From: Odiellus spinosus
Taxonomy: Eukaryota; Arthropoda; Arachnida; Opiliones; Phalangiidae
DNA length: 64,000 bases
Reading direction: 5' to 3'
NCBI GenBank assembly: GCA_963920705.1
Contig: OY987227.1
Span: 27,695,935-27,759,934 of the forward strand
Shown: in pieces, positions 14,141 to 56,529 of the stretch
Numbering within the stretch: the first letter of the stretch is position 1
Layout: each line of letters begins with the position of its first letter
The notes under the pieces: generated by a model
The model's database searches: none
What the model saw: the letters and a program-made list of their open reading frames with translations, nothing else
What the model was told of the DNA's origin: nothing
Translations under genes and position numbers: made by a program

Positions 14141-14421
14141 CAAGGAGGATTAGACAAGGAGAGGAAATGTGGGGCTGCGTTGAGTTAGAGAGAGAAGAGC
14201 CAACCTCCCACTCGGGTGGAAAGGGGGGATAGGAAATTCTCGAGGTAAACTGTTGTCACGTGGTCGCTAGCTAGCGCGTCTCATAAAGGATTCGTTTTAC
14301 CCACGTGACAACATTTTACCACGAAACGTCTCTACCCCCGTTCTCCCAGAGTGGGAGTTTAGGCCGACGCAGTAGGAACCGCGCCGTCCCCACATTTCTT
14401 CTCCTTGTCTAATCCTCCTTG
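14141..14421 (+). mobile_element. Family C near-palindromic element, copy 1 (281 bp, TSD TCAGAGT)
   Basis: It is flanked by TCAGAGT at 14134-14140 and 14422-14428. Both ends read CAAGGAGGATTAGACAAGGA when oriented inward, a variant found in no other copy. The centre is the palindrome TCGCTAGCTAGCG, between GTTGTCACGTGG and CCACGTGACAACA. It has no coding capacity. Confidence 0.95.
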
Positions 14422-14428
14422 TCAGAGT

Positions 14429-15736
14429 CAACGATGACGTCATTAGCAAAACTATATTTTTTTCTCCAAGTTTTGTATCTCGAGATAAAAGTAAAGATGA
14501 TGAAAAAAGCAAAAAAATGGGAAAAGGTCGTTGACAATCAGGCTTAGCGAAACATCTAGCGTCCAAAAATCACGAAAGACACTTATTGGGAAAAATAGCG
14601 TGGTAGGGAATACGAGTGGAGACGCGGCTACGCTTATTATTAGGAACATGCCCCGGAGGAAAGCAATTGTACTAAAAATGGGCAACCTACGCGTATACGG
14701 GTTAGGGGATATTGGGGAGATTCCTGGGAATATAACCCCTAAAGTGGAAGAGCGAGCTTTTTATTTATTTTTTGCTTCCCTTTTTTTTCCCTCTTTCCTT
14801 TATCGCGGTTTACTATGCTTTTTTTCCCAGAACTCTTGACGAGATGAATATTGTAATAAGAAATTGGAAAAATGATCATCTCTTTGTCGATGACATTTTT
14901 TTTTTTTTCTCTCTCTTCACTTTAGGGGCTCCAGGCGGGTTGTATTTAGGCCAGCTAGCTACTTCAATGGGGTCCTCCTACAGTTATACGTTCTGTACTT
15001 TACTTTTAACGTTATAGCCAATATCTATCCTAGTAGACATCGATTTTATGCTAAATTTAAAAGAAAAATACGTATTTTAAGCACTTATTATTGATCATAC
15101 CTGGATTATTCTAAGATCACTTTTTATTTATATGGTAATATCTATTTTGGTATTCGTTCGAGGAAACTAGATCGTTTAAGTCCCCTTTATCGAAATTAAA
15201 ATTGAGTATTTCGGAAAAAATTTGTGTATATATTTTATGTAGGTAAAGATAACATGACACGCGATAGATGATTCTTTTAGTATAATAGAAATAACATTTA
15301 AAGTGTTTTTTTCAATTTGGTCTATTGTCAATTACTATTACAACAAGCCTATAAAAAGTAGGACAGTTGTTCGAGTTAAAAACTATCTTAGAACATAATC
15401 ATTTAAAAATAACTTTCCCATATTTATTCCTAAGATCATTACAGAAACATTAATTAGAAGGGGTGTTGCCAACGACTTCGTTTATCCAATAATATATTAA
15501 CATTGGAATCAAGCGGCCTTATTTATGTTATTCCGGTTATTCAACTCCACTTGACCGATTTAAGGCTTGTATATAAGAAAAAAACAACCATATATATATA
15601 AAAATAAATAAATTGAAGCTGTACAGAAAAAAACCCAATGGTATGTCCTAGCTCCGTCGCCTAAATAAAGCCTTGAACCTATAAATATCTATTTTGTTTT
15701 CCACTACCCATTCACCAACTTTTTCGCACTGCATAC
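14429..15736. other. Non-coding; one strong acceptor-like site
   Basis: TGACGTCA lies at 14435-14442. On the plus strand a T/C-rich run ending CTTCACTTTAG at about 14924 is followed by an open frame (GAPGGLYLGQLATSMGSSYS), but no canonical donor follows. The frame at 14531-14839 is unrecognised. No gene is called. Confidence 0.4.
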
Positions 15737-15743
15737 ACACAGA

Positions 15744-16032
15744 CAAGAAGGATCAGATAAGGAGAGGAAAAGTGGGAACGGCGCGGCTCCTACGTCGGCC
15801 TAAACTCCCACTCTGGGAGAACGCGGGACAGACGGGGGTAGAGATGCTTCGTGGTAAATTGTTGTCACGTGGGTAAAACGAATCCTTTATGAGACGCGCT
15901 AGCTAGCGACCACGTGACAACAGTTTACCTCGAGAATTTCCTATCCCTCCTTTCCACCCGAGTGGGAGGTTGGCTCTTCTCTCTCTAGCTCAACGCAGCC
16001 CCACTTTTCCTCTCCTTATCTGATCCTTCTTG
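15744..16032 (-). mobile_element. Family C element, copy 2 (289 bp, TSD ACACAGA)
   Basis: It is flanked by ACACAGA at 15737-15743 and 16033-16039. Both ends read CAAGAAGGATCAGATAAGGA inward and then GAGGAAAAGTGGG. It is inverted relative to copy 1, with the AACGGCGCGGCTCC half first. The plus-strand frame at 15694-15876 partly lies in it and is not a gene. Confidence 0.95.
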
Positions 16033-16039
16033 ACACAGA

Positions 16040-17264
16040 CAACCTTTCGTTATTTTTTACTGAGAGACCGATCGAAACCTCCGCAAAGTCTCGTAAAGAG
16101 TTCATAAAAGTCGTCCAATAAGACGATAAAAAGGCCTAGCTAAAGCTCGTCTTCTATTTTAGAAGTAGCGGAGTTAAAGTCTGGGAGAAATAGTTAGGCC
16201 TTCAAATTATCCCAGCCTTCCATTCTATTTTCTCTAACGCGATGGACAATCTATAACTGGAAGGGCTAAAAAGCCATCGAGAAATGTGTATAGTAAGTAA
16301 CAAAATAGGTTTACAGCGAAGGTAATGCTATATAGAATATCTCGCACCCTTAAAAGGGTGGAAAATAGAAGGCATTGTAGCTTTAAGCGCGCTAAAAACC
16401 TAAGGCGATTTTAAGTACGTAGGAAGAAGAGAAAAACGACTTCATCTAATATTCACGGCCCGGCTCTTAAACAAAGACAATTTTAGCTTTTTGAGAGAGC
16501 GAGAGAGGAAATTTCCGGACTACAAATTGAGGACCATAAATAAGGCTTAAGCATTGACTAAGATACTCCCCTTCGCCCAAAGTAAAGTCACCGTTGTTCC
16601 GGCGGTAAAGAAAAATCTACGGGGCAGTTGGACCAACTGAATTGTAGTTCAGTTGATAACGAGTATACCTTCATTTCTAGGTAAGATTTAACATTGAGTA
16701 TTCTTCCGCCTAAGCTTTGGGTTATTTATCAACTCCTCTTAAAAATTAGAAAGAGATCTAGGTGAAAAAGGGTCACGTCAGTTAGGGACCGCCCAAGAAG
16801 TAACGTTACAGCTAGTCTATATCTACCGGAATAAAATGGATTCGAAATAGTAGAGAATGAGACGGGGGGGTCCGGGTGCAGCCTCGTGGGTAGATATTCA
16901 AATGAGCAAAGACCCGAGAAGGAAAACTTTTAGCAAAACGATATATTTTTATCTCGTTTATTTAACCTTAATCCCTTGTTCTAGAAAACCAAATTTACAC
17001 CGAGGTGCCGTGAGAAACTCATTAACTCTCTTACTATAGGTACCGTAGATGTAAATCAACTCCACCCTCAGAAATAGGGGTTTCCGTACGGGATCATTTA
17101 TTTTTGTAACTAGTGTTAATGTATAGTATTGCGCTTTTAGTCACGCTATCGCGGATTTCTCGTAAAAACTAAATTTTCTGTAGCAATTTACGAAAGATCG
17201 TTAAAAAATGAATATATATCACATAGAAAACATTACCACAACAATAAAAAAAAAAATCATATAA
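16040..17264. other. Non-coding, nothing recognised
   Basis: No gene or repeat copy was recognised. The open frame at 16857-17039 is unassignable. Confidence 0.5.
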
Positions 17265-17271
17265 TCGAAAC

Positions 17272-17607
17272 TAGAAGTAGATGAAACCCTCCTTTGAAGT
17301 CTATTACTCCCGGGTCTTGTCTACCCCTCTCTGTATGGGTTATTCTCAAAAGGCGCGATTCGTACGCCTCCTAACGGTAGATATTTTCGGAGCGGGAGTT
17401 CGTCGAGCGAATATCTCTAGCAGCCTCGGAGTTCGTTAAAAAACGTCGTCGTTTGTGGAGAGAGAGAATTTAAAATTTTCCGTAGACAGGGGGGATGAAG
17501 TAGGACCCCTTCTAACTCGTAAAATTGGGAATTTTACCCATACAGAGAGGAGCGCTATATGGAACATTGGAGTAGTAGACTTCAAAAGAGTGTTTCATCG
17601 GCTTCTG
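17272..17607 (+). mobile_element. Family A element, copy 3 (336 bp, TSD TCGAAAC)
   Basis: It is flanked by TCGAAAC at 17265-17271 and 17608-17614. The left terminus is degenerate (TAGAAGTAGATG) while the right is intact (CGGCTTCTG). The interior is collinear with the other copies. Confidence 0.95.
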
Positions 17608-17639
17608 TCGAAACTTATGAAAGTTAAAAATCCCCTTCA

Positions 17640-17690
17640 AGTTACAGTTTTGCGCCGTCTATTTCGTGAAAGTACTTAATCCAGGAAGTA
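17640..17690 (+). repeat. Family G fragment
   Basis: It contains GCGCCGTCTATTTCGTGAAA followed by GTACTTAATCCAG, matching the core of the copies at 36245 and 60965. The remainder is absent. Confidence 0.55.
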
Positions 17691-18569
17691 TAACTTGTTA
17701 GTTAAATACGTTTATTACAAATTATAATACGTCATCAAGTTCCGTAAAACATGTCAAGTCAAAGTATAAAACAGCTAAATCTATAATAAATAAAGTATCG
17801 CGTATTATAATTGTAATTTTAGGATTTTGAAGAGATTTCGAGATTTTACAGCTGTGTTTGGGAGATATTTTGGGATTCCAATGTTAATTTTACATTGAGA
17901 GATTTTGGATTTGGCCTAAAGTGTACGGGATTTTGGCAAGTGTCAACGACCCCTCGGTTTACGAGGCTCTTAAAAATCGCGGGAAATGAAAGTTGTTTTG
18001 GTTTGAAATGAGGTGGGTTGCCCTATATCTATTCAGCAGTGTGGAAACTGATAATTTCAAGACTATGACTAATTTTTTTCTTACGAGTTCGCTAGAAGTA
18101 AATTGTTTATATTCTTTGCTTTAAAATTTGAAATATTTATTGAAGGCTAGCGCGTATTTATCTTTATCAGATATTGATACAAACTGTTTAACCGACAATT
18201 TGTCTATTCAACCTCTTTTTAACTGATTTTTGCATTTAAATTATTCGTCCAAACCAGCTCTTTTGTTTTGAGCAGATATCTACTGGTTAATTTTAATTAA
18301 GAACTCTGATCAATTCCACCAGTCCTTCAGTTGGCAGCAACCGCGTTCAAGCTAAGTTCGCGGTATATAACGGGGGGAGCCTAGCTTCGCGTGTTTTGAT
18401 AACTAAATGTGGAATTGACTGTAATGTCATTACTTGACGAAATCAATGTATAAAAGATATCTTGATATATAGGTGTATGGCCTTTTCAAGTACGATTTAT
18501 CAACCTTATACTAACTTTATGTATAAAACGTAAAATAAAAGGAAATGAAAAATAAAATATTAGACTTAC
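17691..18569. other. Start of the EXT1 intron after the 120-bp exon; nothing else recognised
   Basis: This lies directly downstream of the GTAAGT donor on the minus strand. A segment at about 17920-17955 (GTGTACGGGATTTTGGCAAG then TGTCAACGACCCC) shares words with 50470-50506. No exon was found. Confidence 0.5.
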
Positions 18570-18689
18570 CTCTAAGGTTGTGTAGACGATTTTCTCAACC
18601 GAAGCGAAGTAAGTGTCGTAGAGCACCTGGGTCTGTTGTCGAAGCACGTGGACACGCGTGTTAGGAATGGAACGTAGAATGTCCGGAAC
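18570..18689 (-). CDS. EXT1: EXT1 exostosin glycosyltransferase, next internal exon (120 bp)
   Basis: This exon continues directly from the 202-bp exon and encodes 40 codons, VPDILRSIPNTRVH… to …SVEKIVYTTLE. This is the segment linking the N-terminal GT47 domain to the C-terminal GT64 domain; the LRQQTQVLYDTYF stretch matches the family. The acceptor is CATGTCAG (AG at 18691-18690), preceded by a long CTTTCTTTCT tract. The donor is the consensus GAG|GTAAGT (GT at 18569-18568). Both boundaries are phase 0 and the length of 120 bp equals human EXT1 exon 4. The next expected segment, which contains a W-N-x-x-P-G motif, was not seen on the minus strand between 1 and 18569, so the following intron may run past the window edge. 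Confidence 0.95.
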
Positions 18690-20914
18690 CTGACATGACC
18701 GGCCAAGGCAAGGAGAAAGAAAGAAAGGAAAAATATCTTTTAAAGTCAAATGCCAAAATTTATTATCAATGAAAACGTAAAAATGAAAAACTAGTATTGG
18801 CTTCGTGTCGAGGCTGGAAACTCGGGAGTTTCGCCTTTTCTCCGACATTTGACATTTTTAACGCTTTATTAGATTTTATTTAAAATAGATTTTGACAGTT
18901 AAGACACTCGGAAAAATTGCGCCTATACACCCGAGTCTCCTTCTATTCGAGAGTATATTTTATATAGTTTGCGCAAACTTTTAATCTCTATGAAGTTCAA
19001 TATTGCGTATTAATACGCGTCTTTTTTCGATATTTTGAAAAATGATCTTGAACCAACCAAAAATATGGATCTCTTCATATATATATACTTCAGACGTAAT
19101 TTAATAAGAGACAGATTGAGAAATATTGCGAGATAAAGTGTACATCTATGTTATCTTCGATAGTGCATTGGTAACTTGATACAGTAACGTACGCGTACGC
19201 GTTCATCTTGTAATATTTTAGGTTAGGTTTGATAATCCTTCGAACAAGTTCTCCCTCCAACAAAGCCGTACCTAGAACTAGTCCTTATAAACTAAGCTAG
19301 TAATTTTTCGTTTTGTTAAGCTATGGAGTGAAATTTGAAACCACTCGCGTAGAATCTAGTTGCCAACAGATAGTTATCAACATTATTAGTAGATGTCAAT
19401 TTGCTCTTGTGATCACGTGGCCAAATCATAAACACGGGATGAAGAAACATGAAAACTCATATAATTAAGCTATCCACCCTCCCTTAAAGGGAGGATGCAA
19501 CCTAACAAGTGATTTTTTATCGATTCCTTATTGTTGAAATAGGCCTAATCCACTATTTAAAAAATTTACAAACAAATATTAAACTAGAAATAAATTTAAA
19601 ACTTACCCTGAAAATAGGCTTAGTGGGATTCATGGAGCTCCTGATTCCCTCCCGTGTAAGGTCTAGCGACCAATCGCGCGCGACGTAAGTCTCGTGGAGA
19701 TCTCGCGCGAACGACGGACCTTTGCTCATTGGTTTCTAGACCTTACACGGACGCAATTCAGGATCTCCATGAGTCCCGCTAAGCCTATTTTCCGGGTAAG
19801 TTTTAAATTTATTTCTAGTTTAATATTTGTATTGTAAACTTTTTATCGGTGGATTGGGCTTATTTAAACGATAAGGAATCGATAAAAAAAATCACTTGTA
19901 ATTAGGTTGCATTCTCCCTTTAAAGAATATATTCAATAGCGAGGTTTACAATTAACGCGAATAAGCTTTGGAGGAGAGAACTTAAGATTTCTGGAGAATG
20001 AAGATGTATATCCCGCAACATGAGCGTCCTTTTCTAATTTCTATATGGCCACATCGAATATTAAGCATAAGACCCGGGTTTTAAAATGCAAGCTTTATCT
20101 CGCGTCCTATCGGGAAATTGGTGTCCGTAGTTTGGTTCAGCAGCTGATGGCACTCAACTCCTAGGCTCCAGAATATTAAGTTCTCTACAATAATAAGTCG
20201 TGTCTTTATCGCTCGGAGCTCTTTCACGCGTGTATACCAATTTCGATATTTCGTCCAATCATATCACCGAGCGATAGATCGACGGAAACTATATAACTTG
20301 GCTTTAAAGATATTCAATATTTACGTAGATTTCTCTAGAAAATAGGCTAAAATATACGGAATACGTCTGCTTGGTGAACTATCTAGTACAGGGCGACTTA
20401 TATGGACGGTCTCTCGTAAGCTGCTACTAATCCTTTTTAAGCAAAACAGGGAGGGGGGCATTTCAATATGTATTGAAACTGATAAGTCTAAGCTTAATTT
20501 AAGTGTGGTTTACATTGGCGAAGCCAATTATCTATTAGAGACCGACTTAGGGACGACCAATCGTATACTTGTCCTTGATAAGCAAAGGACAGGTTCAGAT
20601 AAGCCTAATCTGAGAATCATTTTGAATTCGATAAAATGTGGTTTACGTTCACTTAAGTTCATATTGCAAAAACAATTATTCACCAACGAACGTTTTGTGA
20701 CAGACTTTTGGTAATAGTGAAATACACTAAATGTAAATACGTCTGTAGAAGTATTTCGAAGTTATCTCGTCAGCTACCGAGTAGGGGCAAAAGTAGATAT
20801 CTGTAAGTTTTTTTATCTTTACGACCTCTTATATATAGAGGCTGGTATGGAAAAATAGGAGGGAGAAATTGGCGAGGGGATATCGGTATATAGATAAAAA
20901 AGTTGTGTACCAAC
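18690..20914 (-). other. EXT1 intron between the two recognised exons (2,225 bp)
   Basis: This is a GT-AG intron on the minus strand, bounded by CAG|GTTGGT and CATGTCAG|GTT. Joining the exons at these sites gives the uninterrupted peptide …[16 protein letters not shown]…. The intron contains a complete family B foldback element at 19488-19919 with TTAA target duplications. The stretch at 20470-20665 holds short inverted segments, such as TGTCCTT…AAGGACA at 20571-20592. No other gene is supported. The plus-strand open frame at 20505-20714 has no recognisable product. Confidence 0.9.
19488..19919 (+). mobile_element. Family B foldback element, copy 3 (432 bp, inside EXT1 intron)
   Basis: It is flanked by TTAA at 19484-19487 and 19920-19923. 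It begins AGGGAGGATGCAACCTAACA and ends in the inverted counterpart. Both arms are full length and the centre (CGCGCGACGTAAGTCTCG) is inverted relative to copies 1 and 4. It sits in the 2.2-kb EXT1 intron between the two recognised exons. Confidence 0.93.
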
Positions 20915-21116
20915 CTGCAGTAGTAGCCTTTCATCGGCCCAGATGGTGGCCTGGTCCCACTGGATGACTTCGGCGAACGGAAGTTCCCAGCCGTTACTTA
21001 GAATGACCGGAATGCAACTAGCCTGTAGCGCTTCCAAAAAACGGAAAGAACCTAAACGACGACCGCGAGGAACCAGGCAGAAAGTTGAATTCTGCATCAG
21101 AACTTTGTAATCGTAC
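20915..21116 (-). CDS. EXT1: EXT1 exostosin glycosyltransferase, internal exon (202 bp)
   Basis: This exon encodes part of exostosin-1, a Golgi type II membrane enzyme that polymerises heparan sulfate together with EXT2. The 67 codons begin [20 protein letters not shown] and end WADERLLLQ, which is the conserved end of the GT47 exostosin domain. The [18 protein letters not shown] block is intact, including the Gly-Arg pair that is altered in human hereditary exostoses (human Gly339/Arg340 by my numbering). On the minus strand the acceptor is TTTGTCATTACAG (AG at 21118-21117) behind a pyrimidine-rich tract. The donor is CAG|GTTGGT (GT at 20914-20913). The first base completes a codon begun in the preceding exon and the exon ends in phase 0. 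From recalled human splice positions (c.962, c.1056, c.1164), its length equals human exons 2 plus 3 (94+108). The identity is near certain; the rest of the gene was not found. Confidence 0.96.
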
Positions 21117-22278
21117 CTGTAATGACAAAGCAAAGAAAAATACTCGTAAGTTCGAGGTATTATTAAAACAATAGGTTCATTAACTATTAATTAGTTATTG
21201 GGTTTGTTAAAAATTACCCGTTATATTTAAAAAAAATACCAAAAACCGTCTTTGGTTTAAATATTCAATATATAATAAGAAAAACTAATTGAGGCGAGGG
21301 GGCATACACTAGCTAACTCGGGTGTACAAAATTTTCAAACTCTTTGCACTATCAAAGTTGTGAACTCAAGAGTTCTAACTCGCTGCACTTTCAAAGCTGA
21401 ACTCAGTGAACTCGGGTGTACAGCGATTTTAAGAGTGTCGAACCCCTCGGATAAACTATTCGTATATGGGAACAAATCCCCCAGACTTCTTTAAAAAAAG
21501 ATAGCGAGGCACGGGAGGCGTGTATGAGAACCACCCCAAAGAAGAATATATAGGAAAAAACTTTTTATATTTTTCTTTCAGTTGCGGGTAAAAGAGGCTG
21601 TACGATGGATATAAGATATACCTAGAGGGTAGAATGAAGCTCGGAATAGGCTACTTTCGAGTCGGCCCGGGAGTCAATAAGGTTAGCGCAGTAGAGGCTA
21701 TACAGATAAGTCTCATTGAGTTTTCCCTTAGCCAGATTGCTTGATCTAATAAAGTCGCGAGCGAGTCCTAGCTTGGCGCTTGCCAGACGTACTACGCCTA
21801 AAATTTCCCCCAAAACGCGTTAAGGCACTAAACCTCACTCTTCCCCGAATGATCTCTATGTCTACCCTTTCTATAGACGTTCCAGCGTAGATAATATACG
21901 AACGAAGAGGAAAGAGCTATACGAGACATGGAATAAATGGAATATCCCAATGGAAAACTTATTTAATCTAGGGAAACTCAATGAAGAATGCGCATTCTAA
22001 GGTAATATCACATAAATCGCGAGCTTCGTTAAGTTAAGGGAATGCATTAACCCTGTTTCAATTAAATTTTAGTTTTCTTAATTGTCCTAATGGTCTCTTT
22101 CTCAAATCCATTAGGCGTAAGCATTGAACACTAGCTATTAAGCTAATTTATCTCCAAAATCTAGCTTCAACTTTACAGTTTCTTAAACAATGACTGTCGA
22201 TTAGTGTTTTAATAAAAATTACAACCAATTTCGCGATTCTACGCGCGGGGTTGGTTTAGTGGACTATTCGGAACCTAA
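21117..22278. other. Upstream side of the EXT1 202-bp exon; a small imperfect duplication
   Basis: On the EXT1 strand this is intron sequence. AACTCGGGTGTACA occurs at about 21315 and 21408. Between them lie two related segments, CTTTGCACTATCAAAGTTGTGAACTC and GCTGCACTTTCAAAGCTGAACTC. A minus-strand frame at 21622-21813 is unassignable. EXT1 exon 1 was not found. Confidence 0.5.
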
Positions 22279-22285: not shown

Positions 22286-22622
22286 CAGAAGCCGATGAAA
22301 CCCTCCTTTGAAGTCTACTACTCCCATGTTCCATATAGCGCTCCTCTCTGTATGGGTAAAATTCCCAATTTTACGAGTTAGAAGGGGTCCTACTTCATCC
22401 CCCCTGTCTAAGGAAAATTGGAAATTCTCTCTCTCCACAAACGACGACGTTTTTTGGACGAACTCCGAGGCTGCTAGAGATATTCGCTCGACGAGCTCCC
22501 GCCCCGAAAACATCTACCGTTAGGAGGCGTACGGATCGCGCCTTTTGAGAATAACCCATACAGAGAGGGGCAGGCAAGACCCGGGAGTAATAGACTTCAA
22601 AGGAGGGTTTCATCGGCTTCTG
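22286..22622 (-). mobile_element. Family A element, copy 4 (337 bp, TSD TTATAAA)
   Basis: It is flanked by TTATAAA at 22279-22285 and 22623-22629. It is inverted relative to copies 1-3: the CAATGTTCCATATAGCGC-type end comes first. Three overlapping open frames at 22256-22613 are repeat sequence, not genes. Confidence 0.95.
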
Positions 22623-30761: not shown

Positions 30762-31042
30762 CAAGGAGGATCAGAGAAGGAGAGGAAATGTGGGGACGGC
30801 GCGGTTCCTACTGCGTCGGCCTAAACTCCCACTCTGGGAGAACGGGGGTAGAGACGTTTCGTGGTAAAATGTTGTCGCGTGGGTAAAACGAATTCTTTAT
30901 GAGACGCGCTAGCTAGCGACCACGTGACAACAGTTTACCTCGAGAATTTACTATCCCCCCTTTCCACCCGAGTGGGAGGTTGGCTCTTCTCTCTCTAACT
31001 CAACGCAGCCCCACATTTCCTCTCCTTCTCTGATCCTCCTTG
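30762..31042 (-). mobile_element. Family C element, copy 3 (281 bp, TSD ATGCAAG)
   Basis: It is flanked by ATGCAAG at 30755-30761 and 31043-31049. Both ends read CAAGGAGGATCAGAGAAGGA inward, a variant private to this copy and identical in the two arms. The half-order is the same as in copy 2. Confidence 0.95.
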
Positions 31043-33151: not shown

Positions 33152-33497
33152 GCTTTCGTGGTTCCATTCCTTTTAGATTTTGACCATTCGTACTAGATTT
33201 TCCAACTCTAAGGCCCAAACCAACGTCTTGGCTTTTTCGTGCGATTATCTCTACTAGATTTTGTCCATCCATACTAGATTTTCCAACTCTATAACCAACT
33301 AAATCATGTTGGCTTTTTCGTATAATTATCTCCACTAGATTTTATCCATCCCTACTAGATTTTCCAACTCTATGGCCCGTCCCATCATGTTGGCTTTTTC
33401 GTGTAATTATCGCCACTAGATTTTGTCCAGCCTACTAGATTTTCCAACTCTATGGCCCGTCCCATTATGTTGGCTTTTTCGCGTGATTATCTGTACT
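33152..33497 (+). repeat. 81-bp tandem repeat, about 4.3 copies
   Basis: ACTAGATTTTCCAACTCTA recurs at 33192, 33273, 33354 and 33434. Each copy is followed by TTGGCTTTTTCGTGTAATTATC and ACTAGATTTTGTCCA. The unit is thus itself made of two halves that each begin ACTAGATTTT. The last copy is one base shorter. The minus frame at 33144-33335 is a product of the array. Confidence 0.93.
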
Positions 33498-33727
33498 ATT
33501 TAAGGAAAACAAATCGTCTTGTTGCGTAACTACAGTGGCCGGGCCGCGACCCATCTTGTTTTTGGGACCTTGTCGCTAATCAAATGAAAATTATGCGTAA
33601 GGTTTCTACGTGCGTTTTTCGCTAGAGAAGAGAGAAAACAGAATGTCAGAATTTCTTTTTTTTTTTTTTTTCCTTTTTCTGTGCGAGATGTTTCGCGTGA
33701 ATAAACCGGCGGCCTGCCGGGTATCAA

Positions 33728-34099: not shown

Positions 34100-34580
34100 T
34101 TAATGAGCGTTAATTTTGTTTCATTATAAATGAGCGATAATTTCATTATTCATGAGTAATAAATAAAATTAATTTAATTATCGAAGAGCCTATAATTATT
34201 ATTCATTATCGATGAGCGATGATTTCATTATTCATTATCGATGAGCGATAATTTCATTATTCATTATCGATGAGCGATAATTTCATTATTCATTATCGAG
34301 GAACGATAATTTCATTATTCATTATCGAAAAGCGATAATTTCATTATTCATTATCGAAAAGCGATAATTTCATTATTCATTATCGAAAAGCGATAATTTC
34401 ATTATTCATTATCGACGAGCGATAATTTCATTATTCATTATCGACGAGCGATAATTTCATTATTCATTATCGACGAGCGATAATTTCATTATTCATTATC
34501 GACGAGCGATAATTTCATTATTCATTATCAATTTAATTATTAATTTAATTTATAATTGATGAGCGATAATTCAATTATAT
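34100..34580 (+). repeat. 29-bp tandem array of small hairpins (11 core units)
   Basis: Core units begin at 34214 and repeat every 29 bp to 34504, with decayed units on both sides. Each unit contains the inverted pair ATTATCG-5 nt-CGATAAT followed by TTCATTATTC. The stem is constant while the 5-nt loop changes in blocks: ATGAG (3 units), AGGAA (1), AAAAG (3), ACGAG (4). Confidence 0.93.
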
Positions 34581-36013
34581 TAGGGATTATAATATATGAT
34601 TTCAAATTTATTTTAATATAGAAGATATTAAAGCCATAGACAGGTATAGTTACGCAACAACGGTATTGATCCAATCTGACCAGGACCTGACCTAAAGTCC
34701 CTTCAACAACGGATCTCTTTCCGTGATCAATCGAGTATTACATCAGTCAACCCAGGTTAGTTCCATATTTTAACAACATAATACGAACCGGAAACAGTTG
34801 CTTACTCGAGTTTACATTTTATCTAAACCCTGTACCAACCCCCCTAGACATTTGTGAAATATTGTCCCAGCCGTCTTCACCAGGAGTTTTGAGAGTCCGG
34901 GAACTATATTCTACTAAATAACGATGAAAGATTTCAGCACGCGTGATACTACAATCGTTTTTATGTCCAAAAAAAAACGTGTAAATGGCGATAAAATTAC
35001 TTTGTTCGTGATGAAATCCGAGATTGAATTCGAATTGTTTAGTCCATCCATTTTATTACGGACAATATATTGAATAACATATATATATATGTATAATGAG
35101 ACCATTACACTCGTCTCTTATCCCGCCTTTGTCCTTTATTATTTCTAAATGTTTGGACGAATCGCGACGTTTTTCATATTTATCCGCGCTATGGTTTCCA
35201 ACCCTTTTTCCTCTTTTTATTCCGCGACTGGCAAAAGGGACACGCTCTAAACGCGGGAAAAATGCATCGTGTAAGCTCATAAACAGTTCGCTTTTTACAC
35301 ACACGCCTCTCCCTGAATAATATATTAAAAATATTTAAAGGGCAAGTCTTGTTGAAATTATAGGTTTCAAAACAATAGTACCCAATGTAAAAGAAAATGA
35401 AGTTTACACATAGACGAAACACGTGACATCTAATAAGGAAAAACGATGATAGTATATAATGTTTTACATTCGCTACGATAGAGGTCGGGGTTTGAACAAG
35501 ATAATCCACGAATATTTGGTTAATCAGTCAATTTTGTTGTTACTGATTTTAGTTCAAAACCTCTCAATTAGTTCTATTTCGATAATAACTTGAGACTAGT
35601 TCTTTAACCGCGAAGCCATGGAGGGAAAGAAACCCGAGCTGTTGGTTTTGGTTTTTGGTGTGGGTGGGAAACCAAAAGGAAACAGGTTTTGGGCCGAGTT
35701 ATTCTCGCGTTTTGCACTCTAGAAAGGAAGGTATCCAACCGGACACTACAAAATTATTTTCCCATAATTATGGGTATACATAGAATGTTGTTACACTTTT
35801 GGCTTCCTCTTTGATGCATAGAAACGGTTCCTTTCCTAAATTTCATCCGTAAAATTTTGTATATGAATAATATATACAAAACGATATACGAAATAAGAAA
35901 AATTAATCAATGATTTTTTTCGGTTGGATTTAAAATTGAGACTAATAGAAGAAAATCAGGCGAGTTTCCAGATTATAAATTATGCAATTAAGCTACAGTC
36001 ACACTATATATAA
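34581..36013. other. Non-coding; contains a family J end at 35481
   Basis: GAGGTCGGGGTTTGAACAAG at 35481-35500 continues into AATATTTGGTTAATCAGTCA and then diverges, so it is a partial family J copy. Open frames at 35056-35509 lie on both strands and are unassignable. Confidence 0.5.
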
Positions 36014-38725: not shown

Positions 38726-39006
38726 CAAGAAGGATCAGATAAGGAGAGGAAATGTGGGGCTGCGTTGAGTTAGAGAGAGAAGAGCCAACCTCCCACTCGG
38801 GTGGAAAGGGGGGATAGGAAATTCTCGAGGTAAACTGTTGTCACGTGGTCGCTAGCTAGCGCGTCTCATAAAGGATTCGTTTTACCCACGTGACAACATT
38901 TTACCAAGAAACGTCTCTACCCCCGTTCTCCCAGAGTGGGAGTTTAGGCCGACGCAGTAGGAACCGCGCCGTCCCCACATTTCCTCTCCTTATCTGATCC
39001 TTCTTG
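38726..39006 (+). mobile_element. Family C element, copy 4 (281 bp, no TSD)
   Basis: Both ends read CAAGAAGGATCAGATAAGGA then GAGGAAATGTGGGG inward, again identical in the two arms. The flanks GTTAAAG and GTACTAC do not match, so this is the only family C copy without a 7-bp duplication. Confidence 0.92.
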
Positions 39007-41635: not shown

Positions 41636-41989
41636 TCGCTTAGAGATAGAGGTAGCTAATGTTTGCCCCACATTGTCATTAGGACCCCGCGTCTTTTTCT
41701 AGTTCTTTAAAAGTTTTCTAAAAATCGCGAAAGCTTCGGTTGAGAAAAATGTGTGTAGGCTATCGGACGGTCTCGAGCTTGCCCGGGGAATTTTAAATTT
41801 TGAGCAGGCGGGTGGCGTGTAAAACGGAAATTACTAGGATGAAACGAAGAGTGTTACGACCCGGGCTGACACTTTGCATGCGCGCGCGGGAATGGTTAGG
41901 GACTATATATTAAGACCCATTTACAAGCCCAATTTTTCAGCTCTAAAACATTTCAGAACAAAAAAAAATAAAATAAAACTTTAAAAATC

Positions 41990-42290
41990 AGTAATGGATA
42001 TATATATGTAAAATTTAGGATAAAATAGGAAGAAATTCTTGTAAAATATAGGATAAAGTAGGAAGGAATTGTAAAATATAGGATGAAATAGGAAGAAATT
42101 GTAAAATATAGGATGAAATAGGAAGGAATTGTAAAATACAGGATAAAATAGGAAGAAATTGTAAAAATATAGGATAAAATAGGAAGAAATTGTAAAATAT
42201 AGGATAAAATTGGAAGAAATTGTAAAATATAGGATAAAATTGGAAGAAATTGTAAAATATAGGATAAAATAGGAAGACAGTATATAATAG
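41990..42290 (+). repeat. 30-bp tandem repeat, about 9 copies
   Basis: The unit is ATAGGATAAAATAGGAAGAA followed by ATTGTAAAAT. Because 30 is a multiple of three, one minus-strand frame stays open through the array and reads as FLPILSYILQ repeats (41953-42300). This is not a membrane protein gene. Confidence 0.93.
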
Positions 42291-43934
42291 GAATTACCAT
42301 TAAATTATTGGAGAAAAAAAGGTAGCTAAGCGAAGAAAAACTAGCTCTTTTCTCTAAGCACCAGCAGACAAGAAATAATTGCGAGAGCGTCTGGAAACTA
42401 GTACACTGTTAATCCAATAATAGGCAAGGAGATAAAACAAAACTTTACGAAACTTGTCCCACAGAGAAACCGTTCCTTTTTCCGGACTAACTTAGACTCA
42501 AAGCAAATAATATCTGATAATAAAATCATGGCCTGTTTTTAAACTACAAGAATTTATTATTATTCCTAAACCCTGTATGAAAGCTTCTCTGCGGACACTG
42601 ATGCTCAGCACTTTAAACACTTCTACAGGCGTCTATGCATCAGCTAAATTTCAAGTCAAAATTATAATTCAGGTTCCTCCCATAAATGCAATTTTAAATA
42701 AAATATTCCACATCAAAATTACATTCTTCTAAGAAGACTTTTTGCATTTTCTTGTTAAAACGTTTTTAATAAAATATCAGAAACTTAAACCTAAAAATCG
42801 ATTAATTATAATAAAAATTAATCTGACGCGCGCATTTAAATACGAGGGTAATTCTCTGTTCGACAAAGAGGAGTTTTTTTTTAGTCCTTCATTTTAAAAA
42901 TCATAGCGGAAAAATAATCCCTATAAATACGTCGACTCGCGACTTGAATTGACAGCGCCAATAAAGCTAGGTACCCTTTAATATTTACCCAAAGAGAAAC
43001 GAGCCACGATTAGGTTTGTACGCGCTGTAAACTTAAAATCGTATTCGAACTATATAGCCCATTTTGGGGAAATAGGAAAACCTCTTTTTCTCGACTTTTT
43101 CTAGGTCTCGAAAAGAAAATTTGAGCTGACGTCGGCTTGGCGCATTAGAGAAAGCCTCTATCCTACGTAAGGAAAGTAGAAGGGTATAGGGAATTGAGAG
43201 AGGAGAAAAAAAAATAACTGCGTAGAGCGACGATGACGATTCGATTTTGCTGAATGCGTAATGGTAGTTGGCGTTTAGAAAGAAGGGCGGGGAAGGAGGT
43301 AATATATGTGTAGATGGTTTCGACTCATTTTTTCAGCACTCGTGATCTTAGCCTACCTCTATCTCTTTGTAAATAAATTATAGAGATGATGGTTAGCGTA
43401 ACATCGCGCGTACTGTAAAACTAAGGTGAAATATACGATAGGAGAAACTAAGATGTCTTACGTGGGGACCAAGGAATGAAGATTCGTTCGCGTATACCTA
43501 AGTAATAAAGGGAATATTCAGGGCCATAAATTCAAGTCTTTCGCACACCGGGTTGATTTTCATTTACTAAATAGTATTAATTCGGCTCTGGCTGTTTGAT
43601 AAAGGGGGCACCAGAGACAAGCCCCCGGAGGAGGCGAAAAACACTCATTTGGGGCCCTAAAAAAGATCATTTTAAAATATAAGTTTCCCCAAAAATTTAA
43701 TTTCAAGGCAGGGCCTTCTAATTTCTACTTTAAATAACTTGGATAGCGTGACTGTTTCGCTTGTAAGATACATTCTTAGTTCAAAGATTACCCATACACA
43801 ATTTTTCATATTTTTCAGGATATATTTGAGACAACCCACTTTTTGAAATTATCTTAACTACACGGAATCACGGAGAAAATGAAGATGGTAGTAAATTATT
43901 TTAAGCCGTGAATATAAAGAAAACTGATGTACAG
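42291..43934. other. Non-coding, nothing firmly recognised
   Basis: A family O-like piece lies at about 42948-42980 (TTGAATTGACAGCGCCAATAA). No gene was seen. Confidence 0.5.
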
Positions 43935-49278: not shown

Positions 49279-49280
49279 TA

Positions 49281-49492: not shown

Positions 49493-49743
49493 TAGCAGAG
49501 GTATATAAAATAAAGGTGACACAAAGTTAGATAATCGCGACAAACCATTATTAAGTTTCCTTAAATTACATCGATTGGGGTATTTTTTATTTTCTCGACT
49601 CTATCGAGATGCTCATCCGAGTGAAGCCAACATTACAGAGTAGATGGTCGTCGTACTCCGAAAGCATTTAGGAAGAGTTTTCCTTCCCATCTTATGTCCT
49701 TCTGGTGTCTATTACTACCTTTATTACCTCATCAAAGTAAAAC

Positions 49744-50080
49744 CAGAAGCCGATGAAACCCTCCTTTGAAGTCTATTACTCCCGGGTCTTGTCTACCCCT
49801 CTCTGTATGGGTTATTCTCAAAAGGCGCGATTCGTACGCCTCCTAACGGTAGATGTTTTCGGAGCGGGAGCTCGTCGAGCGAATATCTCTAGCAGCCTCG
49901 GAGTTCGTCCAAAAAACGTCGTCGTTTGTGGAGAGAGAGAATTTCTAATTTTCCGTAGACAGGGGGGATGAAGTAGGACCCCTTCTAACTCGTAAAATTG
50001 GGAATTTTACCCATACAGAGAGGAGCGCTATATGGAACATTGGAGTAGTAGACTTCAAAGGAGGGTTTCATCGGCTTCTG
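49744..50080 (+). mobile_element. Family A element, copy 7 (337 bp, TSD GTAAAAC)
   Basis: It is flanked by GTAAAAC at 49737-49743 and 50081-50087. Both termini are intact and the interior is collinear with copies 3 and 4. The frame at 49753-49971 is repeat sequence. Confidence 0.96.
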
Positions 50081-50087
50081 GTAAAAC

Positions 50088-51250
50088 GCGTGGCATATAT
50101 ATCCTATAATGATATTGAACCCTTTTCATTTTCGGTACTCCCCATCTACGCCTCTTTTCTATCTCAGAATCGCCGTTTCCTTCTCGACGATAAACTCAGA
50201 GACTAGCCACTCCTTGGAGTACAAGCTCCAACTTTCTTGCAGATACGAGCGTTCAGACTACCTGAAACTATTGACGTCACTGTTTTCATTCGCGAGCTAT
50301 ATGGGGCAGACACTCTTGAATTTAGAACAGAGGGCTCTGATTCTTCCCAAAACCCGTATACTTTGGTCGAAATCCAAAATCTTTTATCGTTGTCTAGAGG
50401 GAATTATCATTAAAATCCCAAAATTACTCGTAAAAACCGCTTTAAAATCTCTAGATAATCCTGAAATCCCGTACACAATAATGGCAAGTGTCCGACCCCG
50501 TCGAATAGAATGTTAGTCTGGTTGGTGATAAAATTCCACTAGGTAGCGTTTGATTTTCTCTTTTTTTAGCATTTTACACAAAAAAGGCTTAAAATAGTTT
50601 AGCTTGTGGTCCAGAGATGGGTAGTCTCTTATACGAAAGCAGCGTCTGTCTCGAGGAAACCGGAAACTCGCTTGACCAATTAGAAGTTTGGCGTCTGACG
50701 CGGGTCGATGATGACGGAGATATTTCTTTTTTATTTCCCTTGTAATAATAATAATGGGCGATCCTAACTGTACGACTCTTCTCGTTCGCGTTATTGTCGT
50801 TCTCTGTAAAGCGTTTCGACGTTGTTCACTCTTTAGTAGATTGGTCCTTTGGGAAAGACCTGGTTTTGACTAATAGTTCTCGGAAACGGAAATGACAATT
50901 TGATGTTGTTATTGTTACATCGATTATACGGTTTATATAGTAACGGAGCTCCACCTCTCGGACGGATTTTTACCCGCCCCTTTCTATATCGCCAAGTTCT
51001 TGATCCCATAAATTTTACACTCACAATAAGAAAAGAGGTTTTGGATTATTATCCTACATAGAATTGAAGCGATTTTCTTCCGCGTTTTTAAATAAAAAAG
51101 GTACACGCGACGTATCGCGGCCGTTTATGCCATTAGATTCTGATGCGGCTAAAATGATTACTTAATCCGTTAATCGGTGTACAGGGAATCCGAGAGTGAT
51201 TAGCCAAAATTACGCGGAGATGGTGATCAATGCGCCATCTTCGCGCGTAA
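50088..51250. other. Non-coding; one 135-codon frame without recognisable product
   Basis: The plus frame at 50109-50516 starts 8 bp after a MITE duplication and has no motif. Its end (CCCGTACACAATAATGGCAA then GTGTCCGACCCC) shares words with about 17920-17955, suggesting decayed repeat rather than coding sequence. Confidence 0.45.
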
Positions 51251-51257
51251 CAAAAGT

Positions 51258-51549
51258 CAAGAAGGATCAGATAAGGAGAGGAAAAGTGGGGCTGCGTTGA
51301 GTTAGAGAGAGAAGAGCCAACGTCCCACTCGGGTGGAAAGGGGGGATAGGAAATTCTCGAGGTAAACTGTTGTCACGTGGTCGCTAGCTAGCGCGTCTCA
51401 TAAAGGATTCGTTTTACCCACGTGACAACAATTTACCACGAAGCGTCTCTACCCCCGTCTGTCCCCCGTTCTCCCAGAGTGGGAGTTTAGGCCGACGCAG
51501 TAGGAGCCGCGCCGTTCCCACTTTTCCTCTCCTTATCTGATCCTTCTTG
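51258..51549 (+). mobile_element. Family C element, copy 5 (292 bp, TSD CAAAAGT)
   Basis: It is flanked by CAAAAGT at 51251-51257 and 51550-51556. Both ends read CAAGAAGGATCAGATAAGGA then GAGGAAAAGTGGG inward. Near the right side it carries an extra CTGTCCCCCGTT segment shared with copy 6 and, inverted, similar in copy 2. Confidence 0.96.
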
Positions 51550-51556
51550 CAAAAGT

Positions 51557-52504
51557 GAAGAATTAAAGTGATTTTCATTTAATCCCATCTGATAATACTT
51601 AATTTAAATCCACAGAAATAGGTAGGTTTAAGAATTTATATTTTTTACAAAGCTTCAATAAAGCCCTTTGACAGACATTACTAACAATTCGATGAAGAAC
51701 CACGTCGCTTTTTGGAAAGCAATATATATTCCTTGATCTGTTATATATTTTATATATATAAGAATAAAAGTCCCGGGCACGGATTTATGGGGTGTCAGCG
51801 TTTGTCAACATCGCGACGCTAGTTCAACCATGCCCTATACCCTCACCCATCGTTACTTTCTATAGCTTCCAAAGGAAAGTCCGGTCCAGAAAATCTGGGG
51901 GTTTTGTTTCGCGGGCGTATGGGTCATAATAATAGGCGAAGAGTGCGCGGGGCTGTTTCGGTAGGGGGGGCTTTTGCCCCGTTTCCGGAGCGCCGACACG
52001 AGTCCCTTCGGGAGGTTTTGCGGAGAAAGCGGTTCCGCCTGGATTGAGGGAACTCTATAGCTCGGGAATCCCGCTGGATATAAGGAGTGAAGAGATAGGG
52101 GGCTTTAGCGCAACCCATTCGGTCCAGCGAACGTTCGGGGATATCTAATGTACGCCTCGTCAATTTGGCTTAGCGTCGCCTCTCTCTTAGCAAAATTCTT
52201 GGGTTAGGAACTACTCTATAGGGTAAAAGTGGAACAACGCGGTAAGTCTTAACTTTCCAAGAAAGTTCTCGACCTACAATGGTTTTTAATTGGAGCCCTG
52301 AATATATACCCAAAACTACGTCGCTCTTTGGATTTAATTTTATAGTAAATGGCCCCTCTATGAGTTAACCGTTTTCTAAAGTTAATAATAAAGGGAGAAT
52401 GAAGCCGTACAAGAAATATCTTGCTATTGATTATTTATCATAAAATTGTTTTGAGCCTGTTTACAATTCATTTTATTAACTTGCTCGTAAAGAAGGCTTA
52501 ACAA

Positions 52505-52506
<2 letters not shown>
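51557..52506. other. Non-coding; GC-richer patch at 51900-52200
   Basis: The minus frame at 51924-52163 is arginine-rich and unrecognised. AAAGGGAGAATGAAGCC at about 52390 looks like a lone family B end. No gene is supported. Confidence 0.45.

Positions 52507-52550
<44 letters not shown>
52507..52550 (+). repeat. (AT)22 microsatellite
   Basis: An uninterrupted AT dinucleotide tract of 44 bp. Confidence 0.99.
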
Positions 52551-52554
<4 letters not shown>

Positions 52555-52796
52555 TATCTCGCCCCTACCAATCACGTGAAAGATCCGGGTACCTTAAGCA
52601 TGTAGTTTGAAACGTTAGATTGTCAGAATAAAGCGTGTGATTGTCTGGAACGTTTACGAATATGTTGTATTGGATGGCATTAATATTGTACGTACGTACT
52701 AATTGCATTCCCGAAATAACTAAATTAATTTCAGAGAGAATTACTGCATTATTACTGTTACGAATTGAAATGTAATTCCGTTGTGGAGTTGACTCG

Positions 52797-52943
52797 AGCC
52801 CTGTTTACACTAGATACTTTAAAACCGTTTTGGAAAGGTCGAATCATAAAATGTATGGGTCACCGTTGAATATCTTTTGACCGAGTTACGCAAGAGTCCC
52901 TCAAACCTGCTTAAAAACGTTTTTAAAGTGTCAAGTGTGAACG
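52797..52943 (+). repeat. Family H element, short copy (147 bp)
   Basis: AGCCCTGTTTACACTAGATA at the left and AAAGTGTCAAGTGTGAACG at the right form imperfect inverted ends. The block AACCGTTTTGGAAAGGTCGA is shared with 8535-8555. No target duplication was identified. Confidence 0.65.
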
Positions 52944-54299
52944 CAACTTTTATAGAGGTTTCGTCACGTTTATCCACTAACCTCGAATTACCCTGAATTA
53001 ACTGAATTTCACTAATATTTTTAAATTTCCCTGAATTATTAGCCTTTAAATTATTTTACTTAAATTTCCAGGTTTATATGAACCCTGGCGATTGATTATT
53101 AAAACTATTTCCTTCATCACTCAATTAAAATATAGCCTATGAAATTGGAATATACGTCATAATTTCCCCTCGTCAAATCATCTTTCGACTATCGAAACAT
53201 ACAATATTTTTCCATTAAGGTTCTATATTTGTGGCTATCGACCTCTTTCGCGCCTTTGACGAATCTACAATGTTACGGGTATAGGGATTTTCCGCGGGGT
53301 AATGGATATATGGATTGGAATTTTAAGGTTTTAAAATTTATGGATTAGACGTAAGTTAAGATATTAGCCAATTAAGTTCTATACTCGTTACGCTTCGAGT
53401 AATATCCACCCCCTCGTTTAAACCCCTTTGGGAGTTAAAAGAGTCCTGAAAGGACCGAGCGAGAGAGCTAGTGAACCCGGGCGTATACAATCCTATACTT
53501 AGCCCCACGACGAAGCGAGCCTTATCGGGGTTTTGAGACTTTATAGGCTTTAGAGAAACTGTCGGGCCTAGAATACGCGATATTAGGTCGTCATTTTCGA
53601 GCTCGGCCTATATTTTAAGTTACACTCTTAAAAAGAATATAATTTAATATTAAAATACTACATTTCTATTCGAATTTAGGTTCGTTTCAAGTTGGCAACC
53701 CGAATTTCCTTTTAACATATATCGAGCCCATCATACATCGGGGTATCCGTCTTGAAAGCGAGCTTACTAAATATTGAAAAAACGCTTTTTCTAGCCTAAT
53801 TTTGGTTCAATTCAAGATTGTATACGAATATATCTTCGATAGTTTATATCGAATGGGTTAAAAGCAATAGATGAAAAAGGGGCAGTGAATAATAAAAGCC
53901 TGTTATTGATTTGTCATTATTTTTACCTTTAACTCTATTGGTTCTATACCGGTAGATGAATAATGTCAAATTATTCAGCCAAGACGCGTCTGACGCTATA
54001 TTCCATCACTGACGCGATCGATTTTTAGGCCCCGTGGCTTTGATATATTAAGTAATATTAAGGTGGGTGGAAAGGGATTGTCTCCGTCTTTCGTTCTAGA
54101 GATATACGTAACAGAGAGCTCATTGGATTATTATACCTGCCTTATTTCCGCCTATACTCTTCTAAATATCTGTCAGTTGGCTAATTTGGGAGAATGGTAT
54201 CGTTAAAATAGATTAGATTTAAAATTCTTCGAGAATTGAAGTCTATTTCACACGGTTAAATTACAGCGACTTTTGTAGATGAGCTCGAAATCGCATAAT
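52944..54299. other. Non-coding, nothing recognised
   Basis: No gene, RNA or named repeat was recognised in this AT-rich stretch. Confidence 0.5.
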
Positions 54300-54740
54300 G
54301 AATGGATATTCTAAGTTTTTTTTCCGATAATTTAATATCGGATAAATTGTTAACATAAAACAACAAATTATATAAACAGACGCGTATCAAATGCGGGATA
54401 CGAATTAGACCAGGAGATAAAATTTTACGCTATTGATTAATAAACTAATTACGCGTTTATTCAAACGGATAATGCGAAGATTAAAATATGAGGTTTCTCG
54501 AAATCCGTGTAGAATGAAATATAATAATTATATTTTAATCTAAATTGAAAGGAACAGCTACTAAATTACTACACTTTAGCTTCGAGATCTCAATTTGGGT
54601 TAAAATCCGCGAAGAAACTCGAGTTTCAAATGTTTCTTATCGGCGAATGAATAACTCGTATCAATTTCCTATAACAATGAGTACGAATAAAAAGTTCGCT
54701 GTTATATTCAGATACGTTAACTCGAATAAGCAATTAATGT
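54300..54740 (+). repeat. Family I dispersed repeat, copy 2
   Basis: It is collinear with 10335-10725 over more than 300 bp with small gaps. It shares TTATATAAACAGACGCGT with the window-edge copy at 63917-64000. The open frame at 54545-54823 lies mainly in the repeat and is not called. Confidence 0.75.
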
Positions 54741-54828
54741 TTTCGCGAACGGATAATATCCGATTGACATTCACGATGGTCATATTCAATTATCAAAAGG
54801 TATACGGATTTAGTGAGACATAAGCCGC

Positions 54829-54915
54829 GTTCACACGAGACAATGAAACCGTTTTCAAACCAAAGTCATAAGATTCGCTTTTAAACTCGCAATTATAAGA
54901 GTGTGACAATTTCCA
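54829..54915 (+). repeat. Family H fragment (left end)
   Basis: AGCCGCGTTCACACGAGAC followed by AAACCGTTTTCAAACC matches the left end of the copy at 8499. The right part is not recognisable. Confidence 0.5.
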
Positions 54916-55498
54916 AGTTTTGAGATATGATAGTAAATTCTACTTCGAGTTGCCAAAAAATATAAAGATATGCCCCTTTAACTAAATGCAAGTATAAATG
55001 AGCGAAATTGGAAGGTATTTAGGATAGTACGCGCAGTAAGAAAGAAATTGAAATAGAGAGTAGACTTAGTAGACTAAATGATGCGGATCAACTAAATAAA
55101 CATGGGGATTCCAAAAAAAAAAAACTCAAATAGACACACTCATTTAATAAATTAAAACACCTAAATCTTCAAAACGGAGAGAATTGGTTTAGGAAAGAGA
55201 TAAAAAAATTGGCAAAGATCGTAAGGAAAAGTAATTCGACGTGAAAGTGACTTGGGCCTAAGGCGACTAATGGGCTAGTCGCAATTAGCCAAGCGTATTG
55301 CCGACCTGGCGCGCACGCCTCAAGATCTCCTTTAATTCTTCATCGTCTCCCTCGCAGGACTTCAAGTTCTTTTTCTAACTTAGTTTTATTTTTTTATTTC
55401 CAGAAAAAGTTCAGACTTAATCCCTTTACTTTTTGAGAGTGCAACGACAAAGAATTAACTTCTATTTTTTCGCGCATTCGTTTATTGGAGACCATCGC
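54916..55498. other. Non-coding, nothing recognised
   Basis: No gene or repeat copy was recognised. Confidence 0.5.
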
Positions 55499-55502
55499 TT
55501 AA

Positions 55503-55933
55503 AGGGAGAATGCAACCTAATTACAAGTGATTTTTTATCGATTCCTTATTGTTTAAATTGGCCTAATCCACCGATAAAAAGTTTACAATACAAATATTAA
55601 ACTAGAAATAAATTTAAAACTTACCCTGAAAATAGGCTTAGCGGGATTCATGGAGATCCTGAATCGCGTCCGTGTCAGGTCTAGCGACCAATGAGCAAAG
55701 GCCCGTCGTTCACGCGAGATCTCCACGAGACTTACGTCGCGCGCGATTGGTCGCTAGACCTTACACGCGAGGAAATCAGGAGCTCCGTGAATTCCACTAA
55801 GCCTATTTTCCGGGTAAGTTTTAAATTTATTTCTAGTTTAATATTTGTTTGTAAATTTTTTTAATAGTGGATTAGGCCTATTTAAACAATAAGGAATCGA
55901 TAAAAAAATCACTTGTTAGGTTGCATCCTCCCT
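55503..55933 (+). mobile_element. Family B foldback element, copy 4 (431 bp)
   Basis: It is flanked by TTAA at 55499-55502 and 55934-55937. Both arms are complete. The centre (TCGTTCACGCGAGATCTCC) is in the same orientation as copy 1, with which it is nearly collinear. Confidence 0.94.
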
Positions 55934-56238
55934 TTAACCTTTCTTTTTTGGAATATTAATACGGGACCAGGGATCACGGACTCTTACGTCTATGAATCTT
56001 CGGAATAAGCTACAATTAGTGCGGACGAAGTTATATATTTTACATCTAAAACCTTAATTGAGGCTGTCGCCATTTTCATCGAATGCGGATTATTTTTTAG
56101 ATTATCATATTAAAATTCCAATTTTAAAAATTTGTAAGTTATGGTTGACGCGCTCTTAAGACGCTTCAAAATGTCACAAATTACCGAATGTGCTTGAAAT
56201 ACTGATTGCGCAATGAATTAAAAGCACTCCATACGACC

Positions 56239-56529
56239 AAGAAGGATCAGATAAGGAGAGGAAAAGTGGGGCTGCGTTGAGTTAGAGAGAGAAGAGCCAA
56301 CCTCCCACTCGGGTGGAAAGGGGGGATAGGAAATTCTCGAGGTAAACTGTTGCCACGTGGTCGCTAGCTAGCGCGTCTCATAAAGGATTCGTTTTACCCA
56401 CTTGACAACAATTTACCACGAAGCATCTCTATCCCCGTCTGTCCCCCGTTCTCCCAGAGTGGGAATTTAGGCCGACGCAGTAGGAGCCGCGCCGTTCCCA
56501 CTTTTCCTCTCCTTATCTGATCCTTCTTG
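56239..56529 (+). mobile_element. Family C element, copy 6 (291 bp, TSD ATACGAC)
   Basis: It is flanked by ATACGAC at 56232-56238 and 56530-56536. It is almost identical to copy 5 throughout, with both ends CAAGAAGGATCAGATAAGGA then GAGGAAAAGTGGG inward. The minus frame at 56394-56645 runs out of the repeat and is not a gene. Confidence 0.96.

Follow-up and report, generated by a model that had tools for sequence, protein, structure and literature searches.

Matched terminal repeats mark subfamilies of a probable P-superfamily miniature transposon in Odiellus spinosus and may record exchange of its interior

Introduction

The transposase of the Drosophila P element cuts 17 nt inside its inverted repeat (PMC7776569), and template-based gap repair at P-element breaks is established (PMC3887531). 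Ectopic gap repair has been proposed as the origin of P-type miniature inverted-repeat transposable elements (MITEs) (PMC1562414), and the authors who described Galileo, a Drosophila transposon of the P superfamily, account for a central region shared by terminal repeats of three subfamilies by an exchange with both breakpoints inside the element. Here we describe family C, a set of short elements found in six copies in a 64,000-bp stretch of the Odiellus spinosus genome (OY987227.1:27,695,935-27,759,934, contig C3 in our analysis and hereafter the window; the assembly comprises 443 Mb in 286 contigs). The two arms of each copy carry matching variants. We show that these matched arms belong to subfamilies, which were mass-copied from a few masters, and not to single copies. 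Most of the matched-end pattern reflects the usual subfamily structure of a young MITE burst. More surprising is that one core occurs with several matched sets of ends, two subfamilies differing only in their outermost 15 bp, and the middles of the element seem to have been swapped between end types.

Matched arms are a property of subfamilies

The six copies in the window are as follows, with end types given as the bases at sites 5/11/15 of the arms.

14141..14421, plus strand: copy 1, 281 bp; ends G/T/C, T at site 28; target duplication TCAGAGT
15744..16032, minus strand: copy 2, 289 bp, core of the 292 type; ends A/C/T, A at site 28; target duplication ACACAGA
30762..31042, minus strand: copy 3, 281 bp; ends G/C/G, T at site 28; target duplication ATGCAAG
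38726..39006, plus strand: copy 4, 281 bp; ends A/C/T on the 281 core; flanks GTTAAAG/GTACTAC
51258..51549, plus strand: copy 5, 292 bp, core of the 292 type; ends A/C/T, A at site 28; target duplication CAAAAGT
56238..56529, plus strand: copy 6, 292 bp, core of the 292 type; ends A/C/T, A at site 28; target duplication ATACGAC

The terminal inverted repeats (TIRs) are 33–34 bp long, and further inward the arms pair imperfectly (74–77%). The window contains 12 matches to GGATNAGANAAGG, one at each of the twelve arm ends, compared with a mean of 0.06 in shuffled sequence. Positions and variants of all six copies agree with those of the original prediction, which was made from the window sequence. 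The arms of each copy agree at sites 5, 11 and 15 (6/6 copies), the inner variant at site 28 (T or A) follows the same pairing in both arms, and the only single-arm difference within the terminal stretch is found at site 23 in the right arm of copy 1. The prediction had also taken the matched variants to be private to each copy. The matching holds; the privacy does not, since the variants are common to many genome copies.

We sampled these genome copies as the highest-ranked places in similarity searches, and they form neither a complete nor a random set. Of the 1415 candidates for copy 1, 40 were scored, and every one of them (copy 1 itself among them) is identical to it (100% over 281 bp); its one-arm difference at site 23 is therefore a subfamily mark too. 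With copy 4 as query, 40 copies were listed at 99–100% identity, again including the query. We fetched 27 of these (L002–L028), and each differs from copy 4 at copy 4's own base 182 plus at most one further change. Only one of the 18 further changes lies in an arm (L019, site 29, single arm). Most copies in these two lists are known from their listed identity and not from base-by-base reading.

More divergent copies came from 20 of the 40 places that match the copy 5 core, mostly lower-ranked ones, and from all 39 non-self places that match the copy 2 core. The combined table holds 113 copies and leaves out L052, which has lost its left end, and L101, whose right arm is unreadable. Left and right arms disagree at site 5 in none of these copies, at site 11 in two, at site 15 in three and at site 28 in two. 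Five copies are discordant at site 5, 11 or 15 (L073, L079, L087, L118 and L120), and three (L078, L115 and L122) show an additional matched end type, A/C/C. Twenty 10-kb stretches (two next to the window and 18 distributed over seven contigs) contain only two family C copies.

Arm distances were compared over 33 sites in 112 copies (the table without L122) with 2000 permutations. As the prediction expected, arms are much closer within copies (0.375) than between them (1.898), and none of the 2000 permutations gave a value as low. The difference persists (0.552 within, 2.001 between) in 67 distinct copies taken from core-only searches and the 10-kb stretches, a set chosen blind to the ends that lacks most exact copies of copies 1 and 4, which were not fetched. 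Within each subfamily, named here by its ends and core, it vanishes: in A/C/T-281 (29 copies), A/C/T-292 (39), G/C/G-281 (17) and G/T/C-281 (12), within-copy and between-copy arm distances are equal. Among 104 copies in the four end-type groups with at least three members, a count to which neither discordant copies nor the small groups (L062, L078, L115) contribute, 0/20 later changes are present in both arms. What we find is thus a few fixed subfamilies without further arm pairing, the very pattern that the prediction had named as contrary to it.

Since distances are equal inside the subfamilies and none of the 20 later changes is shared, there is no homogenisation after insertion: the arms mutate independently once inserted. 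Continuing arm-by-arm homogenisation is thus unsupported. Independent mutation alone is nevertheless insufficient, as the prediction held, because three subfamilies with an identical core differ by matched changes at both ends. This combination calls for a concerted process, or for selection, at the origin of the subfamilies.

One core carries several sets of ends

To look at the cores separately from the ends, we used copy 1 positions 45–237 (193 bp) as a query. All 40 copies listed, copy 1 among them, have an identical 193-bp core. They show three end types, G/T/C in 22, G/C/G in 12 and A/C/T in five, and one copy has lost its left end. Eighteen of the 40 were found in the copy 1 list and five in that of copy 4; the remaining 17, which we fetched, comprise 12 G/C/G copies, four G/T/C copies and L052. 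Matching at sites 5, 11 and 15 holds in each of the 39 intact copies. Between the A/C/T-281 and G/C/G-281 subfamilies, the only differences are those at sites 5 and 15 of both arms; the intervening 251 bp are identical.

Several copies combine features of different subfamilies. L062, a singleton in the sample, has G/C/G ends and the 281 core, with 292-type states at site 28 of both arms and at sites 34 and 44 of the right arm. Because of the G/C/G ends and the 292-type site 28 on both sides, its joins lie between sites 15 and 28 at both ends. L113 combines G/C/G ends and arms with the 11-bp segment of the 292 type, and L119–L121 and L125 have 292-type sites without that segment. On both G/C/G and G/T/C ends, each of the core sites b85 and b166 is seen in either of its two states. 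Among the more divergent copies, A at b85 with C at b166 is found in five G/C/G copies (L123, L128, L130, L132 and L133) and two G/T/C copies (L129 and L131), and A with T in two G/T/C copies (L124 and L127). Most near-identical copies of both types have G with T, and copy 3 and L069b have G with C. This reflects either transfer of cores from one end type to another or parallel changes at these sites.

Family A as a comparison

The matched ends of family C set it apart from a second family in the window, family A, as the prediction had stated. Two comparison copies are:

22286..22622, plus strand: family A, 7-bp target duplication TTATAAA, arms differ
49744..50080, minus strand: family A, target duplication GTAAAAC

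Family A elements, one more of which lies at 61137-61477, begin with CA, have 7-bp duplications and have arms mostly fixed as different left and right forms. In a set of 13 copies, arm distance is 2.615 within and 2.692 between copies (145/2000 permutations as low), with no clear pairing. This set includes a copy from L049 and leaves out those at 17273, 39608 and 46252, whose ends are displaced or incomplete. A TAG variant is present in the left arm only in three of the 13 copies; the copy at 17273, outside this set, has it in its right arm. Family A may use the same class of transposase as family C.

Target sites, excision scars and superfamily

An exact 7-bp target duplication flanks 5/6 window copies (copy 4 has none), 71 of the 76 extracted copies and 35 of the 39 in the copy 2-core set. 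Duplications in the P superfamily are 7 or 8 bp long, and 1360/Hoppel, for example, makes one of 7 bp. The 71 sites share a palindromic motif centred on the duplication, TNN-RYNNNRY-NNA, which is likewise a P-superfamily feature. Family C elements are 281–292 bp long and carry TIRs and target duplications; there are at least 40 identical copies, and no open reading frame (ORF) of at least 150 aa starting from ATG, GTG or TTG was found in the window. Family C is therefore a young, non-coding, high-copy MITE, and it is most likely moved by a P-superfamily transposase; its membership of that superfamily is likely. The hAT superfamily, which has 8-bp duplications and TIRs with A as the second and G as the fifth base, was rejected on the 7-bp duplication and on position 5, which is A in 82/113 copies. 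A foldback-type element does not fit either: its TIRs would be long and internally repetitive, whereas those of family C span only 33–34 bp.

We searched 324,248 bases (the window and 34 loci above 1 kb) for scars left by excision. At L032:1672-1701, two 15-nt end tags, one with a mismatch, lie between 7-bp repeats ATATGAC. A 14-nt end tag, on one side, is found at L049:2082; the duplicate locus L050 has the same tag, and the related element of L051 does not. Three exact end-motif matches, two of them independent, thus lie outside full copies, compared with a mean of 0.035 and at most 2 for shuffled motifs. These tags suggest that excision may leave about 14–15 nt of end sequence at the donor site. 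For family A, a search of these bases turned up no scar.

A scan for short palindromes between 7-bp repeats gave two sites, the L032 scar and L030:9173-9210, and none in five rounds of block-shuffled sequence. With other repeat lengths, the scan gave two hits at 6 bp, one at 8 bp and one at 9 bp; the 9-bp hit is the L030 site again, and the 8-bp hit and one 6-bp hit are a single site in L046. The L030 site is palindromic, with two 17-nt arms CATGGATTAATTATAAG between GGTAATG repeats, and judging from this arrangement is an apparent excision scar of another P-like element. The L046 site (5896-5921), with the 8-bp repeat GATATGTG, is a scar candidate for a further element.

P-like transposase genes

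The genome contains 68 matches to the Tnp_P_element domain. We inspected six P-like loci (L049–L051 and L092–L094), of which L049 and L050 are duplicates of each other. Two of the six have long reading frames, of 926 and 766 aa, and L051 carries other ends than those of family C. L049 and L050 are 6-kb stretches on contig C4, about 239 kb apart, inverted and 99.9% identical, each with a P-like transposase fragment. They are either an inverted segmental duplication of recent date or a portion of a larger repeat. No viral contig with one form of the end motif was found, in a search from which records near this genome were possibly left out.

Distribution and other features of the window

Among the best 40 matches to the copy 5 core, 37 are no more than 2.5 Mb from a contig end, where a uniform distribution would place 9.0 (median distance 0.94 Mb). 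The 40 matches are situated on contigs C1, C3–C8, C11, C14, C16 and C17. The corresponding figures are 9/40 in the copy 1 list, 8/40 in the copy 4 list and 5/20 in the top 20 for copy 2. Seventeen of the 20 fetched copy 5-core places have an exact target duplication and every duplication is different; the copies near contig ends are therefore separate insertions. Their clustering reflects either a burst with a preference for chromosome ends or regional gene conversion.

At L070:93-373, a copy 1-type element is inserted in an older family C element and flanked on either side by the 7-bp repeat GTCTCAT. The right end of the older element is A/C/C with A at site 28.

A Pfam search of five translated frames of the window gave one match, Exostosin_GT47, and an Rfam scan found no family at gathering score. 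Tandem arrays lie at 34140-34616 (unit 29 bp), 41983-42344 (units of about 10–30 bp) and 33174-33512 (about 81 bp).

Origin of the matched ends

We favour an explanation to which we give about an even chance: ectopic gap repair at P-type breaks would keep the end tags and swap the interior. Each matched arm pair, as shown above, marks a subfamily whose master had matched ends before it was copied. An excision break would retain tags of about 14–15 nt at the donor site and, repaired from another family member, would keep both original tags while its interior is refilled from the template. The product would have the same core with different, internally matched ends, and its joins would fall just inside nt 15–17 at both ends. 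Some of the swapped copies would have been amplified later, the best example being the copy 4 subfamily, which has the 281 core with A/C/T ends. After insertion, the two arms mutate independently.

A number of points weigh against this explanation. The gap repair step is inferred and is seen directly in no copy. Joins at 15–28 on both ends are found in only two exchanges (the copy 4 subfamily and L062), an interval that fits a cut at 17 without proving it; the copy 4 subfamily could also have arisen by plain descent, and b166 could be a site of recurrent mutation. Just two scars were found, and they hold 14–15 nt, not 17. The join in L118, between sites 5 and 15, is the single case of a one-sided exchange, and site 23 of the copy 1 subfamily, which lies outside the end tag, has a variant fixed in the right arm alone. 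None of the six inspected loci was found to hold a P-like gene with family C ends (CAAGRAGGATYAGANAAGG). Finally, the work on P-element gap repair reports no conversion from a template on another chromosome (PMC3887531).

Matched ends could instead be the outcome of selection. Exchange or mutation would be random, and only copies whose ends suit one transposase variant would become masters. One transposase processes both ends of a transposon, all amplified types have matched ends, and the five discordant copies (5/113) are each the sole member of their haplotype in the sample, all of which would fit. However, L062 is a singleton and is still matched, with joins at 15–28 on both sides; the copy 1 subfamily was strongly amplified despite its unmatched site 23; and family A spread with asymmetric arms, as its left-arm TAG variant illustrates. 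Selection by itself also leaves the identical core across end types unexplained. We regard it as the main rival, though rather unlikely, and in our reading an exchange of interiors with the ends kept together fits better than selection for matched ends.

Two further explanations appear improbable to us, each to a similar degree. In one, the arms were homogenised within a master element before amplification, by hairpin replication or by gap repair using the wrong end. This would account directly for the paired changes at sites 5, 11, 15 and 28, and in P elements the 5′ end replaced the 3′ end in 38/38 flies with one gap-repair rearrangement (PMC3887531). Against it stand the 0/20 shared later changes and the missing pairing inside the four subfamilies, as well as the absence of any A/G split between arms at site 5 in the 113 copies. 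The arms moreover stay distinct from site 34 inward, so that conversion tracts would have to stop within the repeat. In the other, the subfamilies arose by plain descent, with ordinary substitutions along one lineage and a core that simply stayed unchanged. Nearly all sampled copies are traceable to a few masters, and the matched A/C/C type is a possible intermediate. Plain descent nevertheless requires that several matched double changes fell inside 15 bp while the intervening 251 bp took none, and that b85 and b166 changed in parallel in the G/C/G and G/T/C lines. Furthermore, all 29 extracted A/C/T-281 copies are nearly identical, the type is found in 0/39 more divergent copies (a sample drawn with the copy 2 core, which may miss them), and L062 and L113 look like mosaics.

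Returning to interior exchange by gap repair, we can put forward, as a tentative extension that is more probably wrong than right, that P-type breaks act as a device for swapping modules. The 17-nt cut would leave matched tags, ectopic gap repair would fit a new core between them, and end and core cassettes would recombine freely. If so, the two ends stay linked across about 250 bp of shuffled sequence, and the joins in chimeric copies are a record of the transposase cut site that can be read in the genome. If the joins follow the transposase cut, the genome sequence would by itself reveal how a transposon is cut, and whole-element trees of MITE subfamilies would be misleading. An apparent arm-to-arm homogenisation is replaced by a testable account in which ends stay together and cores are mobile.

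Comparison with known systems

Galileo resembles family C in its 7-bp target duplication and in having two TIRs that are 98–100% identical within a copy (PMC3573991, PMC4168063). One and the same Galileo central region is found with the TIRs of subfamilies D, E and X, each matched (PMC3573991). The scale is different: the TIRs of Galileo are long, with about 570 bp per end differing between such subfamilies, whereas in family C the type-specific end covers at most about 15–27 bp of a 33-bp TIR in an element of 281–292 bp. The target motifs resemble each other but differ in their flanks, GTANTAC in Galileo compared with RYNNNRY and T at −3 in family C. The P-MITEs of Anopheles gambiae are likewise short and non-coding, have P-type TIRs and have had an origin by ectopic gap repair proposed for them; they differ in their 8-bp duplications and identified P masters (PMC1562414), as against 7 bp and no master found for family C. 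The cut 17 nt inside the 31-bp inverted repeat of the Drosophila P element (PMC7776569) would leave tags like the family C scars; the target duplication of the P element is 8 bp, and this comparison is by description and not by sequence. 1360/Hoppel, also of the P superfamily (PMC4168063), is set beside family C by description and not by its TIR. The passages and listings searched contain no statement on whether joins in chimeric elements fit the position of the cut. What would be new in family C is joins that fit the cut position.

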